Shown piece by piece: positions 55,587 to 58,948 of a stretch of 64,000 nt of DNA. The DNA comes from Candidatus Aminicenantota bacterium (GTDB lineage: Bacteria > Acidobacteriota > Aminicenantia > Aminicenantales > UBA4085), in the NCBI GenBank assembly GCA_003141555.1, contig PLMN01000005.1:62001-126000 (forward strand). The letters are read 5' to 3'. A program made the position numbers and the translations under genes. Every line of letters begins with the position of its first letter. Within the stretch, counting starts at the first letter, position 1. The notes beneath the pieces are model-generated. The model searched no databases and had not been told where the DNA came from. It saw only the letters and a program-made list of their open reading frames with translations.

Positions 55587-55594
55587 CGGTTGCC
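55587..55594 (+). repeat. Target-site duplication, left copy
   Basis: CGGTTGCC directly outside the left inverted repeat, matched by the copy at 58941-58948. Confidence 0.8.
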
Positions 55595-55610
55595 GGTAGT
55601 GGGTCAGTTT
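55595..55610 (+). repeat. Left terminal inverted repeat of the transposon
   Basis: GGTAGTGGGTCAGTTT, a perfect complement of 58925-58940. It begins GGTA like the ends of the classic IS1 element. Confidence 0.85.
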
Positions 55611-55647
55611 CAATATATTTTTAATCTACTGAACAATAGAGGAAATT

Positions 55648-56043
55648 GTGATAAAATTATTATTGAAAATGGCCGATCAGATTCCTTTCTTCAAAGATCT
55701 TTTCCAACGGGCCGACGTTAGGGTTTCTCGTACACATATATTAAATCCTCTTATGTGGGCCGTGCCTATTTTATTCAGCATGGCCCTTTATGCCTATACC
55801 CATGCGGTTCCATTGGCGGTATGTATAATTATTTTTTCAATGGCATTAGCATCTACAATTATATTTCTATTCGTATACGTATTTTACGCATTCAAAGACC
55901 CGGATAAATTGCGATCAGAAAGATATTTAATTCAAAAAACGCTAATAGAAAGAGGGGCGTTCGGAGACAATCGAACAGAACTCCTGACTATGGAGGAAAT
56001 GACTAAAATAGAAAAATTGGAATCGGGTCAAACGGGAAGATGA
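55648..56043 (+). CDS. Cargo: small membrane protein of unknown function
   Basis: A 131-residue protein from GTG 55648 with AGGAA upstream. It has an N-terminal amphipathic segment, two transmembrane helices (AVPILFSMALYAYTHAVPLA and a following hydrophobic stretch about 55-80) and a charged C-terminal tail (MEEMTKIEKLESGQTGR). No family was recognised. Several AUA codons fall in the transmembrane helices, which argues that AUA is read as a hydrophobic residue here. Eleven bp separate it from the next gene, so the two form a cargo pair. AT-rich, unlike the host. Confidence 0.75.
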   Translation: MIKLLLKMADQIPFFKDLFQRADVRVSRTHILNPLMWAVPILFSMALYAYTHAVPLAVCIIIFSMALASTIIFLFVYVFYAFKDPDKLRSERYLIQKTLIERGAFGDNRTELLTMEEMTKIEKLESGQTGR

Positions 56044-56053
56044 CTAAGACAAA

Positions 56054-56365
56054 ATGAGTAAGAGATTTATTATTGCCGTTAATACGACAAACGCCGAGCA
56101 GGAATCGGCGGTTACAGAATATTTAAGAGCAAAAACTGGGGTGTGGTGGCATTGGATAAATAATATTTGGCTTGCTATAGATAAAACGAATAATATCACC
56201 GTTGATCAATTGAATAATGAAATCTTGAAGCTTGTCCCTGGGGCCTATATGTTAATCCTTGAAATTCGAGGGGAAGACAACTGGCATGGATATGGTCCCG
56301 CTAGCGAAACAGATAAGAATAAAAATATGTTTGAATGGCTGTTGAAAACCTGGTCTGGGAAATAG
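56054..56365 (+). CDS. Cargo: conserved small protein of unknown function
   Basis: A 103-residue soluble protein: RFIIAVNTTNAEQESAVTEYL, then WWHWINNIWLAIDKTNN, and MFEWLLKTW at the C-terminus. The pattern of strand-helix-strand with a WWHWI motif resembles small ferredoxin-like proteins seen on mobile DNA, but no function is known to me. It lies 11 bp after the membrane-protein gene on the same strand, and converges on the transposase gene. Co-expression with the membrane protein suggests a two-component cargo module (inference). Confidence 0.72.
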   Translation: MSKRFIIAVNTTNAEQESAVTEYLRAKTGVWWHWINNIWLAIDKTNNITVDQLNNEILKLVPGAYMLILEIRGEDNWHGYGPASETDKNKNMFEWLLKTWSGK

Positions 56366-56385
56366 CCAAGCAATCCGGCGTCTGT

Positions 56386-57207
56386 TTATAATAAGCCCAA
56401 TATTTCTTCGATGCCCCAAACATGATCTGTGACCTTGGCCTCCATAGCCGGGGTAACTCTCAAGGTCTGATGAACGCGGCAGAAATTGTAATACATGAAG
56501 TGCAAGGCAACGGCATAGGATAGGTTTTCTACTTTCTTTGAAAAGCCGTTAGTCAGTCTCGTAAACCTCCGCAAGTTCATCCTCATCGTTAAATTCTGCC
56601 GTTCAACATAGCTTGTGGAGACTTTTTCTTTTTCGGGATATCCGTTTATTTCCGTCTTTATTGTCCCTATGCAGATCGGGGGGCTGTAACGCTTCTGGCC
56701 CTCAACTGATTGGCCGTATATCTTCACGAGCTGGCTAAAATCAATGTCCTTTCCAAAGGCATTCTCTACGGCCTCTAAATACATCTTGTGGCCGTCCGTC
56801 GTTAATTGGACACGATTCTTTAGCCGCCCCGCAAGGTCTTTCATGAAGATCGTAGCATCTTCCAGATCGCGCCGCCCGATATACCATGAGGGGACGAGTT
56901 TTGTATCAGCATCAATCGCCGTAAACGTCCAAACGTCCCCATATCCGAATTGCCCCTTTTTATCTTTGGGGACATTCTTTTCCTTGGCATAGCAAAATGA
57001 CCAAATTTTATCGCATTGAATATTCTTACAGGGAAGACCGCGCAAAACCTTATCTTGATGGTCTGAACAAGCCTGTCCAACATCAGCCAGGAGCTTAACT
57101 ACCGTATTCTTGGCTACCCCAGTCATGCGGCAAGTAGCCCTAATTGAGTTGCCCTCCACCAAAGAGGCAATAACCGCCACTTGCTTTTCGATCTTTAGCT
57201 TGTTCAT
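56386..57207 (-). CDS. IS1-family transposase, single ORF
   Basis: A 273-residue protein matching IS1-type transposases. The N-terminal helix-turn-helix is SLVEGNSIRATCRMTGVAKNTV. The DDE-type catalytic residues are D66 in QCDKIWSFC, D138 in LTTDGHKMY, and E202 in YVERQNL. Unlike classic IS1 it is one continuous ORF without the InsA/InsB frameshift, as in the single-ORF IS1 subgroup. It catalyses movement of the whole 3.3-kb element through the 16-bp ends. It has a consensus promoter with the ATG 6 nt after the -10 box. Confidence 0.92.
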   Translation of the reverse strand: MNKLKIEKQVAVIASLVEGNSIRATCRMTGVAKNTVVKLLADVGQACSDHQDKVLRGLPCKNIQCDKIWSFCYAKEKNVPKDKKGQFGYGDVWTFTAIDADTKLVPSWYIGRRDLEDATIFMKDLAGRLKNRVQLTTDGHKMYLEAVENAFGKDIDFSQLVKIYGQSVEGQKRYSPPICIGTIKTEINGYPEKEKVSTSYVERQNLTMRMNLRRFTRLTNGFSKKVENLSYAVALHFMYYNFCRVHQTLRVTPAMEAKVTDHVWGIEEILGLL

Positions 57208-57213
57208 GGTTAC

Positions 57214-57242
57214 ATTATACTTGACCGCTCAAGCATTGTCAA
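57214..57242 (-). promoter_or_regulatory. Consensus sigma70 promoter of the transposase with spacer motif
   Basis: Reading leftward: TTGACA (57242-57237), 17-bp spacer, TATAAT (57219-57214), then 6 bp to the ATG. Both boxes are perfect consensus. The spacer contains CTTGAGCGGTCA, also present in the promoter of the 71-residue gene at the right end. The short distance implies a leaderless mRNA. Confidence 0.8.
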
Positions 57243-57293
57243 GTGTTTCTTATGGGAATTTGACAAGTCGTTAAATATGCTGTATATAAAGAA

Positions 57294-57385
57294 CGGAGGC
57301 GGCAGGATTTGAACCTGCGGCGGGTGGTATCAGCACTCGCTACCAATTATAAGTTGGCTCCAATCGACCACTCTGGCACGCCTCC
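57294..57385 (-). tRNA. Type II tRNA with serine-like body and UAU anticodon
   Basis: A complete cloverleaf folds on the minus strand. Acceptor GGAGGCG/CGCCTCC (7 bp), discriminator G73, no encoded CCA. D-stem CCA/TGG with loop GAGTGGTCGAT. Anticodon stem GCCAA/TTGGT with loop CTTATAA, giving anticodon TAT. A long variable arm (GCGAGTG/CACCCGC, one mismatch). T-stem GCAGG/CCTGC with loop TTCAAAT. A long variable arm plus G73 are serine-tRNA features, whereas UAU would read the isoleucine codon AUA; normal tRNA-Ile is type I. The amino acid cannot be assigned from sequence alone. It lies inside the transposon. Confidence 0.85.
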
Positions 57386-57423
57386 GGAATTATTAGGGAG
57401 TGGACGGCGAGGAAATCGCCTAG

Positions 57424-57514
57424 GCCCTAGGTTCGCTATCCGTAGAAAGAAGAACGAACCTAGGGCTTCTTGCTTTACGCCCCCGTTGACGGCGATTCAA
57501 TTATCAATGGGGGC
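57424..57514. other. Two adjacent strong hairpins, possible structured RNA
   Basis: Hairpin 1: perfect 12-bp inverted repeat GCCCTAGGTTCG at 57424-57435 with its complement at 57455-57466. Hairpin 2: 11-bp stem, 57479-57489 with 57504-57514 (GCCCCCGTTGA), with one G-U pair if transcribed from the plus strand but an A-C mismatch from the minus strand. They lie between the tRNA and the DUF5343 gene and are not explained by a coding sequence. They could be a small RNA or back-to-back terminators. Confidence 0.5.
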
Positions 57515-57555
57515 ATAATCTCTTCTCATCATTCCCTCCATAATTTATTTGCGCG

Positions 57556-58239
57556 TTACTTTTTCGATTCTTCCTTTAGCCAATTAAATCCATCGAGCCA
57601 TTTAGATTTAATATCATCTGGCCATGCGGGATCGAAGATAGGGAATTTTTCTAAAAGTAGCTTCCATCGATCTGGGAAACCTTGGGCCGGAGGGGGATTA
57701 TTCCCATCAATGAATTCGGCGGAATGGGGTTCATCTTTTTGTTTCTTGGGCTTAGGGCTACTATTGCTACGGGGGGCCCGATCTTTTGGCTTACTGATAT
57801 ACTGAGACAACTCGATCCCGGCGTCTTTTGCCACCATTAGAAAGAATTTAATGGATTTCCTAGAAGTTTCCCCGGTAGTGCCAGTATCTTCAAATTTCTC
57901 TTGAAGCATTTTTGATGTCATAATGCCAAGGTTGTCTTTCTCTCCGAACAAGAAAGGGTAGGCGGAAGTTATGATTTCTTTTAGCACAGCCGGTTTTTCT
58001 TTGTCGGCATTGATCAGTTTTTTCAAATTTTCCGCAGGGATTCCGCCCTCGCTCATAAGACCTAAATACTGCAAGGCACTAAATAGTTGACGTTGGATTG
58101 CGCCGGAAAATGAACCGACGACGCTTCGATCAATCCTCATCGGAACACCCTGGACCTTAAGCCGCTCCAAGAAATTTAAAAATGTCTTGTAAGATAAATA
58201 GGGTGGCTTTAATTGTTTCGCCTCATTCGCTTCGCTCAT
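57556..58239 (-). CDS. Cargo: DUF5343-family protein
   Basis: A 227-residue soluble protein. The N-terminal PPYLSYKTFLNFLERLK and PMRIDRSVVGSFSG blocks are characteristic of DUF5343, with LFSALQYLGLMSEGGIP following, which looks like a winged-helix region. The C-terminal third is charged and Pro/Lys-rich (PRSNSSPKPKKQKDE), then WLDGFNWLKEESKK. Function unknown; DNA binding is possible. The start is supported by TAGGAGGAG. Its -10 region is a perfect palindrome, so autoregulation is plausible. AT-rich cargo gene. Confidence 0.8.
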   Translation of the reverse strand: MSEANEAKQLKPPYLSYKTFLNFLERLKVQGVPMRIDRSVVGSFSGAIQRQLFSALQYLGLMSEGGIPAENLKKLINADKEKPAVLKEIITSAYPFLFGEKDNLGIMTSKMLQEKFEDTGTTGETSRKSIKFFLMVAKDAGIELSQYISKPKDRAPRSNSSPKPKKQKDEPHSAEFIDGNNPPPAQGFPDRWKLLLEKFPIFDPAWPDDIKSKWLDGFNWLKEESKK

Positions 58240-58275
58240 CTTCTCCTCCTAATCGAATTACGATACCAAGTTACC

Positions 58276-58309
58276 GTATTATAATACCATCCATAAGCGT
58301 CCCCGTCAA
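58276..58309 (-). promoter_or_regulatory. Promoter with palindromic -10 region (possible operator)
   Basis: GTATTATAATAC (58276-58287) is a perfect 12-bp palindrome covering the -10 box (TATTAT 58286-58281). TTGACG (58309-58304) lies 17 bp upstream as the -35. It serves the DUF5343 gene; GTTACCGT-like half sites recur at 58271 and 58333 in the divergent intergenic region. Confidence 0.55.
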
Positions 58310-58403
58310 GTAATAAATAAAAATAATCTCTACGTTACCGTGTCCGACTATATTTTACTTTGTTTAATGGTAACAATATCATACGTGTTGAAAGGAGCAT
58401 GAT

Positions 58404-58652
58404 ATGCACGGAGAAACAGTTGTTGTAAGGGCTTTCGGGGGAGTGCCGTTAATCAGAAAAGTATGGGAAGTTGGGGAAGATGTGGTTTATCTGGTTTCCG
58501 ATAATCATTATAACCTATTGACAAAAGAAGACCCAAGGGCCATCGGCCCAATTGGGTTTCCAAAAGAAGATGTTTTTCTATATGAGCCCGAGATTGTGAA
58601 ATTAAATAAAAAGACAATCCCCAGATGGGAGAAATTGAGGCCCGCATTTTAA
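58404..58652 (+). CDS. Cargo: small protein of unknown function
   Basis: An 82-residue soluble protein (MHGETVVVRAFGGVPLIRKV ... LNKKTIPRWEKLRPAF), beta-rich, with no recognised family. AAAGGAG lies 7 bp before the ATG, and a TTTACT / TATCAT promoter pair with 17-bp spacing is visible upstream. It is divergent from the DUF5343 gene and convergent with the 71-residue gene, with only 7 bp between stops. Confidence 0.65.
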   Translation: MHGETVVVRAFGGVPLIRKVWEVGEDVVYLVSDNHYNLLTKEDPRAIGPIGFPKEDVFLYEPEIVKLNKKTIPRWEKLRPAF

Positions 58653-58659
58653 TTATTGG

Positions 58660-58875
58660 TTACTTCCCCCATCTGGCCTTGGCCGCGTTCCTGGCGATTT
58701 CTTTCCTCTTTTTAGGGGACAACTTTTCGGCCCTGGCCTTGCCGCCCTTCAATCCGCCTAGGCGGCCTAGAGACACGGCGGCAGGATTCTTCTCTGGCTT
58801 CTTTTCTTCTGTTGGCGCTGTCGTTTGAGATACTATCCTATGAGCCATTTGGTTTTCATCTTCGTGTTTCTTCAT
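58660..58875 (-). CDS. Cargo: small basic protein
   Basis: A 71-residue protein starting at ATG 58875. The N-terminus is polar. The C-terminal part GRLGGLKGGKARAEKLSPKK...ARNAAKARWGK is a conserved basic motif found in many short proteins on mobile or accessory DNA, reminiscent of histone-H1-like or DNA-binding tails. Function is unknown. Its promoter (TTGATT, 17 bp, TATGTT) ends 6 bp before the ATG, so the mRNA would be leaderless, as for the transposase. Confidence 0.7.
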   Translation of the reverse strand: MKKHEDENQMAHRIVSQTTAPTEEKKPEKNPAAVSLGRLGGLKGGKARAEKLSPKKRKEIARNAAKARWGK

Positions 58876-58881
58876 GCTCAA

Positions 58882-58910
58882 AACATACAGCATGACCGCT
58901 CAAGAATCAA
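58882..58910 (-). promoter_or_regulatory. Promoter of the basic-protein gene sharing the transposase spacer motif
   Basis: TTGATT (58910-58905), 17-bp spacer starting with CTTGAGCGGTCA (58904-58893), TATGTT (58887-58882). The same 12-mer occurs in the transposase promoter at 57233-57222, shifted by 3 bp relative to the -35 box. Confidence 0.6.
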
Positions 58911-58924
58911 GCCCCCAAGATTTC

Positions 58925-58940
58925 AAACTGACCCACTACC
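58925..58940 (-). repeat. Right terminal inverted repeat of the transposon
   Basis: The complement strand reads GGTAGTGGGTCAGTTT, identical to the left end. Confidence 0.85.
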
Positions 58941-58948
58941 CGGTTGCC
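58941..58948 (+). repeat. Target-site duplication, right copy
   Basis: CGGTTGCC directly outside the right inverted repeat, identical to 55587-55594. Confidence 0.8.

Follow-up and report, generated by a model that had tools for sequence, protein, structure and literature searches.

A serine-type tRNA with the isoleucine anticodon UAU inside an IS1-type transposon, a candidate natural missense suppressor

The only tRNA gene in the 64-kb stretch of DNA analysed here (the window) combines a complete serine-type body with the anticodon UAU and lies inside an IS1-type transposon. We propose, with a confidence somewhat short of even, that it is a functional passenger gene whose product would accept serine and decode AUA, acting as a natural missense suppressor in the manner of the allo-tRNAs. 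The proposal draws on the fold of the tRNA, on a homologue in a second genus and on a survey of the transposon family, in which tRNAs whose body and anticodon disagree recur; the evidence throughout is sequence, much of it from metagenome assemblies.

The gene was called by ARAGORN as tRNA-Ile(tat) at 57293-57386 on the minus strand, and Rfam model RF00005 covers 57294-57385 on the same strand (55.5 bits, E 3.1e-9). Its stems measure 7 bp in the acceptor (GGAGGCG/CGCCUCC), 5 bp each in the T and anticodon arms, and 3 bp in the D arm, as in Ser tRNAs. The anticodon occupies 57349-57351 (minus strand; ARAGORN and the sequence itself) within the loop CUUAUAA, position 73 is G and no CCA is encoded. 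The variable arm comprises 7 bp including one A.C mismatch, of which there is none in the relative at locus L079. The RNA fold (z = -2.85) is better than those of all 200 shuffles. When compared with the native tRNAs of the window's own genome (a 3.79-Mb assembly of 33 contigs), the closest is Ser-GCU (66%), followed by the remaining three Ser tRNAs. The long variable arm and G73 are those of a tRNA-Ser body, with an anticodon that belongs to no Ser codon, and the type II body with G73 departs from the type I body with A73 that characterises tRNA-Ile. The first-pass annotation had described a complete type II, G73 tRNA with UAU on a Ser-type body and had advised the use of a tRNA finder and a covariance model; both programs, the inspection of the stems and the comparison with the natives agree with that description.

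The transposon itself (55595-58940, minus strand, 3346 bp) was delimited by its terminal inverted repeats and target duplication, and has a GC content of 0.43 against 0.68 in the flanks. The repeat on the tRNA/DUF5343 side (58922-58940, minus strand; GGTAGTGGGTCAGTTTGAA on that strand) shows one difference from the opposite end, on the 3' side of the transposase (55595-55613, plus strand; TTGAAACTGACCCACTACC on the minus strand), and the two sit 1,714 bp upstream of the transposase start and 773 bp past its stop. The target site duplication CGGTTGCC is found at 55587-55594 and 58941-58948. An IS1-type DDE transposase, ends starting with GGTR and an 8-bp target duplication place the element in the IS1 family. 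With inverted repeats at both ends and the duplication outside them, the earlier placing of the tRNA inside a transposon proved right, and a reading in which the element had inserted beside a host tRNA as its target site was rejected for the window, the tRNA lying between the repeats. Ordinary host tRNAs do occur outside the right inverted repeat at five other loci (L103, L148, L151, L131 and L133), at a distance of about 50 to 130 bp, and the family may insert preferentially near tRNA genes.

Downstream of the tRNA lies the gene of the IS1-type transposase (56386-57207, minus strand), which scores barely over the cut-off for PF03400 (25.5 bits, cut-off 24.1) and whose plasmid relatives are annotated as IS1 family transposases. 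Its promoter (57214-57242, minus strand) is a perfect sigma-70-type TTGACA-17-TATAAT with the palindrome CTTGAGCGGTCAAG in the spacer; this palindrome is probably an operator. Spacer sequences resembling it were seen in many sister elements. Upstream of the tRNA and on the same strand is a gene for a DUF5343 protein (57556-58239, minus strand; PF17278, 36.9 bits, cut-off 27), and between the two a 12-bp perfect inverted repeat read from the sequence (57424-57466, minus strand), without a U-tract, forms a putative functional hairpin; comparable hairpins stand 5' of the tRNAs in sister elements. A small ORF with the motif NPAAVSLGRLGGLKGGKARA (58660-58893, minus strand) adjoins the terminal repeat and has no Pfam match; motifs of this type recur in the upstream ORFs of many sister elements. 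The cargo is completed by three ORFs on the plus strand, an AUA-rich one of 131 aa (55648-56043) and two without Pfam match, of 103 aa (56054-56365) and 82 aa (58404-58652).

A 74%-identical tRNA is present in a related element of another genus of the same family, that of Ca. Aminicenantes PFL34 (G003; L048/L032 and L079), with position, orientation and UAU all as in the window element. Between the window and L079 tRNAs, paired (compensatory) changes are found in three stems, those of the anticodon, variable and T arms; both tRNAs share the variable-arm loop CUGAUAC and a 7/5 acceptor/T branch. The L079 tRNA adjoins a transposase with an in-frame stop, which counts against a missense suppressor, and an intact transposase copy in the same genome has no adjacent tRNA. 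The first-pass annotation had listed an inert integration relic among its options, and had taken eroded stems or an unconserved anticodon among homologues as the mark of a pseudo-tRNA. Capture of tRNA genes by mobile elements is common and some units in the tRNA slot are degenerate (L086, L225), so the decay of a host tRNA after a single capture deserves mention; it is nevertheless very unlikely, as the fold is intact, the anticodon loop is conserved in a second genus and mismatched tRNAs recur in one slot across phyla. Since the homologue keeps UAU and the stems are maintained by compensatory changes, the window tRNA does not behave as an eroding relic, and that option fails by its own test.

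Relatives of the transposase were taken from named genomes, from the window genome's own relatives, from further genomes of the phyla to which the Chloroflexi, Zixibacteria and Nitrospirae hits belong, and from viral contigs. In the resulting 181 distinct loci of the transposase family tRNAs were called by ARAGORN with default settings. Target duplications matching at 7 or more of 8 bases were present at 50 of the 69 related loci with both ends. Twenty-four tRNAs lie inside elements, about half of them so placed only by position, an element end being missing from the fetched stretch. Nearly all are located immediately 5' of the transposase; of the 21 tRNAs on that side, 20 share its strand. 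The variable-arm class contradicts the anticodon in 16 of the 24, against none of the natives of the window genome and 1 of 20 flanking tRNAs (L061); the Fisher p for this excess, 5e-10 as printed, treats the tRNAs as more independent than they are, several being related to one another. The single mismatch among the 45 tRNAs tallied as native is L032, that is, the G003 transposon tRNA.

The mismatched tRNAs comprise Ser-like bodies with UAU (window, L079) or UUA (L126), a Leu-like body with UGC (L224), and type I Arg-like bodies with ACU (L084, L095, L105, L191, L226, L254) or GCU (L233, L263, L273); the arm-class count leaves out one more kind of mismatch, UAG on a Ser-like body (L202, L135). 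ArgRS reads A20, C35 and G/U36, while LeuRS and AlaRS ignore the anticodon. In an alignment of eight Arg-like passengers and three host Arg tRNAs, counted together, A20 and C35 are invariant, 97.4% of the cells are paired and 16 of 21 pairs are doubly changed. The Arg assignment was made because of the A20/C35 determinants, several of these bodies not being closest to Arg by overall identity to the window genome's natives. The kept synthetase determinants and changed anticodons therefore suggest a rule for the family, by which synthetase identity would be retained and the anticodon be that of another amino acid or a stop. The presence of such mismatched tRNAs in related transposons of many phyla suggests that selection keeps them in the element and that they are no mere leftovers. 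A search of viral contigs for UAU with the variable-arm motif gave two matches, neither of them a tRNA, and model R2, run on 376 genomes, found mainly ordinary tRNAs at 30 to 45 bits, with a few matches higher.

Some loci show other arrangements. In another family of the phylum a transposase remnant is followed by three tRNAs, one of them type II with UAU and an encoded CCA (L061:1724-2998). In an Eremiobacterota element (L135:2915-3098, minus strand) the Ser-like UAG tRNA is accompanied by a tRNA that has CUG on a non-Gln-like body; both lie 3' of the transposase and on the strand opposite to it. A 5.3-kb element (L097, 820-6097) holds a 943-aa methyltransferase-like cargo gene and, on the 3' side, a long-variable-arm tRNA with GAC.

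The main rival to missense suppression is a role in which only the fold matters. The tRNA would then separate the upstream cargo gene from the transposase promoter as a signal for cleavage and termination, by which read-through transcripts are cut and transposase expression is not raised, and its anticodon would be irrelevant. The near-fixed place and strand of the 5'-side tRNAs fit such an insulator, and so do the hairpins often lying 5' of them. A search of 180 upstream regions for minihelices, that is, a 7-bp acceptor joined to a T arm, points the same way: they occur in 20 of the 180 on the transposase strand, in none on the other strand and in none of 3920 shuffles. Several of these units are canonical in acceptor and T arm only and keep little else of a canonical tRNA, a pattern for which decoding has no need and which counts against a missense suppressor. 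An insulator predicts neither the conservation of the anticodon (UAU is shared by the two Aminicenantes elements, and the Arg-like tRNAs have ACU/GCU) nor the mismatch rule, as an ordinary tRNA would serve equally; we regard it as possible, though doubtful.

The minihelix search also brought to light a second kind of RNA 5' of the IS1-type transposases. It is about 68 nt long, alanine-type (G3:U70, A73) and tmRNA-like, and is present in ten elements (L224:2552-2620, L225:2499-2566 and L231:2346-2414, all on the minus strand; L088:468-535, L098:219-285, L084:4671-4738, L112:4730-4798, L138:4886-4954, L194:1343-1412 and L086:1030-1099). In the best-aligned copies the D arm is reduced to a mini arm and the anticodon-like arm is longer, several having UGC there; the fold is backed by covariation in five well-aligned copies, and three copies match RF00023 below the gathering score (E 5e-9 to 9e-7). 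In five of the ten elements it stands before another tRNA. This RNA is absent from the window, and a related unit was seen in one complete element from the order to which the window belongs (G013; L309). An IS1595 transposase of G047 has as neighbours a coiled-coil gene, the alanine-type RNA and a UUA tRNA, in an element for whose ends the search gave a weak candidate pair; modules of this kind were recorded at L278:1416-1965 and L308:3258-4908. Judged from this arrangement, the gene-plus-tRNA module can occur with another transposase.

Of the 22 loci with a tRNA, 16 have a same-strand ORF upstream, compared with 55 of the 147 loci that lack one (p = 0.002); this ORF usually encodes a DUF5343 or coiled-coil-winged-helix protein. 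This association and the occurrence of the module next to an IS1595 transposase (L278) would also fit a non-translational function, in which the aminoacyl-tRNA is a partner or decoy of the adjacent protein, for instance in a toxin-antitoxin or regulatory pair, and the anticodon change bars normal decoding; a transposon or toxin-antitoxin role has been proposed for the allo-tRNA-UAU group (PMC7609411). Such a partnership seems unlikely, as DUF5343 is not an obligate companion of the tRNA, most DUF5343 genes of the phylum having no tRNA nearby, and many elements with such a gene lack the tRNA. At L162 the tRNA neighbouring the DUF5343 gene is degenerate.

The use of AUA differs between host and element. 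It accounts for 4 of the 6,268 codons in twelve host ORFs (0.64 per 1000) and for 5 of the 274 transposase codons (18 per 1000), a frequency 28 times that of the host genes, and reaches 45 per 1000 in the 131-aa cargo ORF, where it makes up 6 of 12 Ile codons. In the transposases of both UAU elements the AUA sites are mostly I/V/L positions in homologues. AUA thus means Ile in the transposase, and Ser at these sites would damage the element's own enzyme; the earlier opinion that AUA is still Ile in the cargo is upheld as far as the transposase is concerned. A recoding of AUA to Ser in the element's genes was rejected for the transposase on the same grounds, and a recoding of AGU to Arg in the ACU elements was rejected too, since two of them use AGU at a position where 65 of 69 homologues have conserved the Ser. 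The frequency of AUA in the transposase, with the meaning Ile, might speak for an Ile-charged tRNA that supplies AUA decoding to an AT-rich element. The Ser-type body and G73 make this highly improbable, and the host is already equipped with TilS and three CAU tRNAs, one of them Ile2-like; nor can codon supply explain ACU, GCU, UUA and UGC on the wrong bodies in sister elements. Among the three readings that the annotation had offered, the allo-tRNA-like insertion of Ser at AUA is thus the best supported, while the relic and the Ile-charged mimic lose ground; that mismatch prevails throughout this transposon family goes beyond what the annotation had noticed.

Missense suppression is, on the sequence evidence, the most likely activity of the window tRNA, and we envisage it as follows. 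Transcription would start either ahead of the upstream DUF5343 gene, in one transcript with it, or at a weak promoter nearby, and the host's tRNA-processing enzymes would excise the tRNA. Host SerRS, ignoring the anticodon, would charge it through the long variable arm and G73, as expected from the established SerRS identity rules. The charged tRNA would then compete at AUA with the scarce lysidine-modified tRNA-Ile2 and insert Ser. These three steps fit the rule proposed for the family. Mistranslation would fall mainly on element-borne and other foreign AT-rich mRNAs at low cost to the host, a Ser-charged UAU tRNA being expected to be nearly harmless to host genes because AUA is nearly absent there and common in the AT-rich element. 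In the most speculative part of the scheme, the tRNA would provide a trans-acting, copy-number-dependent brake on the element's proteins. Control of the element is the most likely use of the window tRNA, and is put forward with low confidence because no corresponding signal is seen in the codons of the transposases: in those of tRNA-bearing elements the matching codons are neither consistently enriched nor depleted once GC is allowed for, and hence there is no sign of co-adaptation.

A broader and more tentative proposal concerns the family as a whole. IS1-type transposons of many phyla, and at least once an IS1595-associated one, might carry a translation-directed module formed by a DUF5343 or coiled-coil/winged-helix gene, a hairpin, in some cases the 68-nt alanine-type tmRNA-like RNA, and a mismatched tRNA. 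The tRNAs would be kept as missense or nonsense suppressors which control the element or other foreign genes via mistranslation. Allo-tRNAs came from sequence surveys without a clear role, and a link to transposons had merely been guessed. The present study adds a defined genomic location, immediately 5' of the transposase in transposons that have repeats and target duplications. It also adds a rule, by which the codon changes and the synthetase identity stays, with natural examples in many phyla; among these are a tRNA that reads ochre and Arg-like tRNAs that read Ser codons. Our literature search found no paper on passenger tRNAs of IS1 or IS1595 elements; many subscription papers were outside its reach and novelty is not proven. 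Deliberate mistranslation by mobile elements becomes directly testable, and a catalogue of natural suppressor tRNAs is supplied.

With regard to known systems, the transposon family shares with IS1-family insertion sequences the DDE transposase, GGTRRTG-type ends and a short target duplication. The IS1 duplication is usually 8 to 10 bp, and those of the transposon family are mostly 8 bp; unlike these insertion sequences, its members are mostly about 2 to 5 kb long with cargo genes and, in some, tRNA genes. The ~68-nt RNA resembles the tRNA-like domain of tmRNA (RF00023) in G3:U70, A73, a reduced D arm and a canonical T arm, but a stem of about 9 bp with a 7-nt loop replaces the mRNA domain and pseudoknots. 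The tRNA-Ile(UAU) of Mycoplasma and lactic acid bacteria is an ordinary tRNA-Ile served by an adapted IleRS; the window tRNA has the same anticodon, whereas it is type II with G73 and TilS is present. Bacterial tRNA-Ser is matched in the type II body, G73 and the 3-bp D stem, but UAU reads AUA and serves no Ser codon. The closest parallel is given by the allo-tRNAs (Mukai et al. 2017), which are of Ser type, have an 8/4 or 9/3 branch and count UAU among their leading anticodons (PMC7609411). SerRS ignores the anticodon, and two allo-tRNAs insert Ser at Leu codons in E. coli (PMC7609411). The allo-tRNA-UAU group was reported to be unusable for translation in E. coli, which counts against missense suppression by the window tRNA; a UAU pseudogene overlaps a transposon-related ORF, and a transposon or toxin-antitoxin link was guessed (PMC7609411). 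The window tRNA likewise joins a Ser-type long-variable-arm body to the non-Ser anticodon UAU. It differs in its 7/5 branch, which is neither 8/4 nor 9/3 and falls outside the strict 12-bp-branch criterion, in its sound stems, those of the allo-tRNA-UAU group being damaged, and in a defined place inside IS1-type transposons as opposed to a single transposon-overlapping pseudogene. The window tRNA may thus work like an allo-tRNA, yet we do not class it as one because of its branch, which is not 8/4 or 9/3, and its sound stems.
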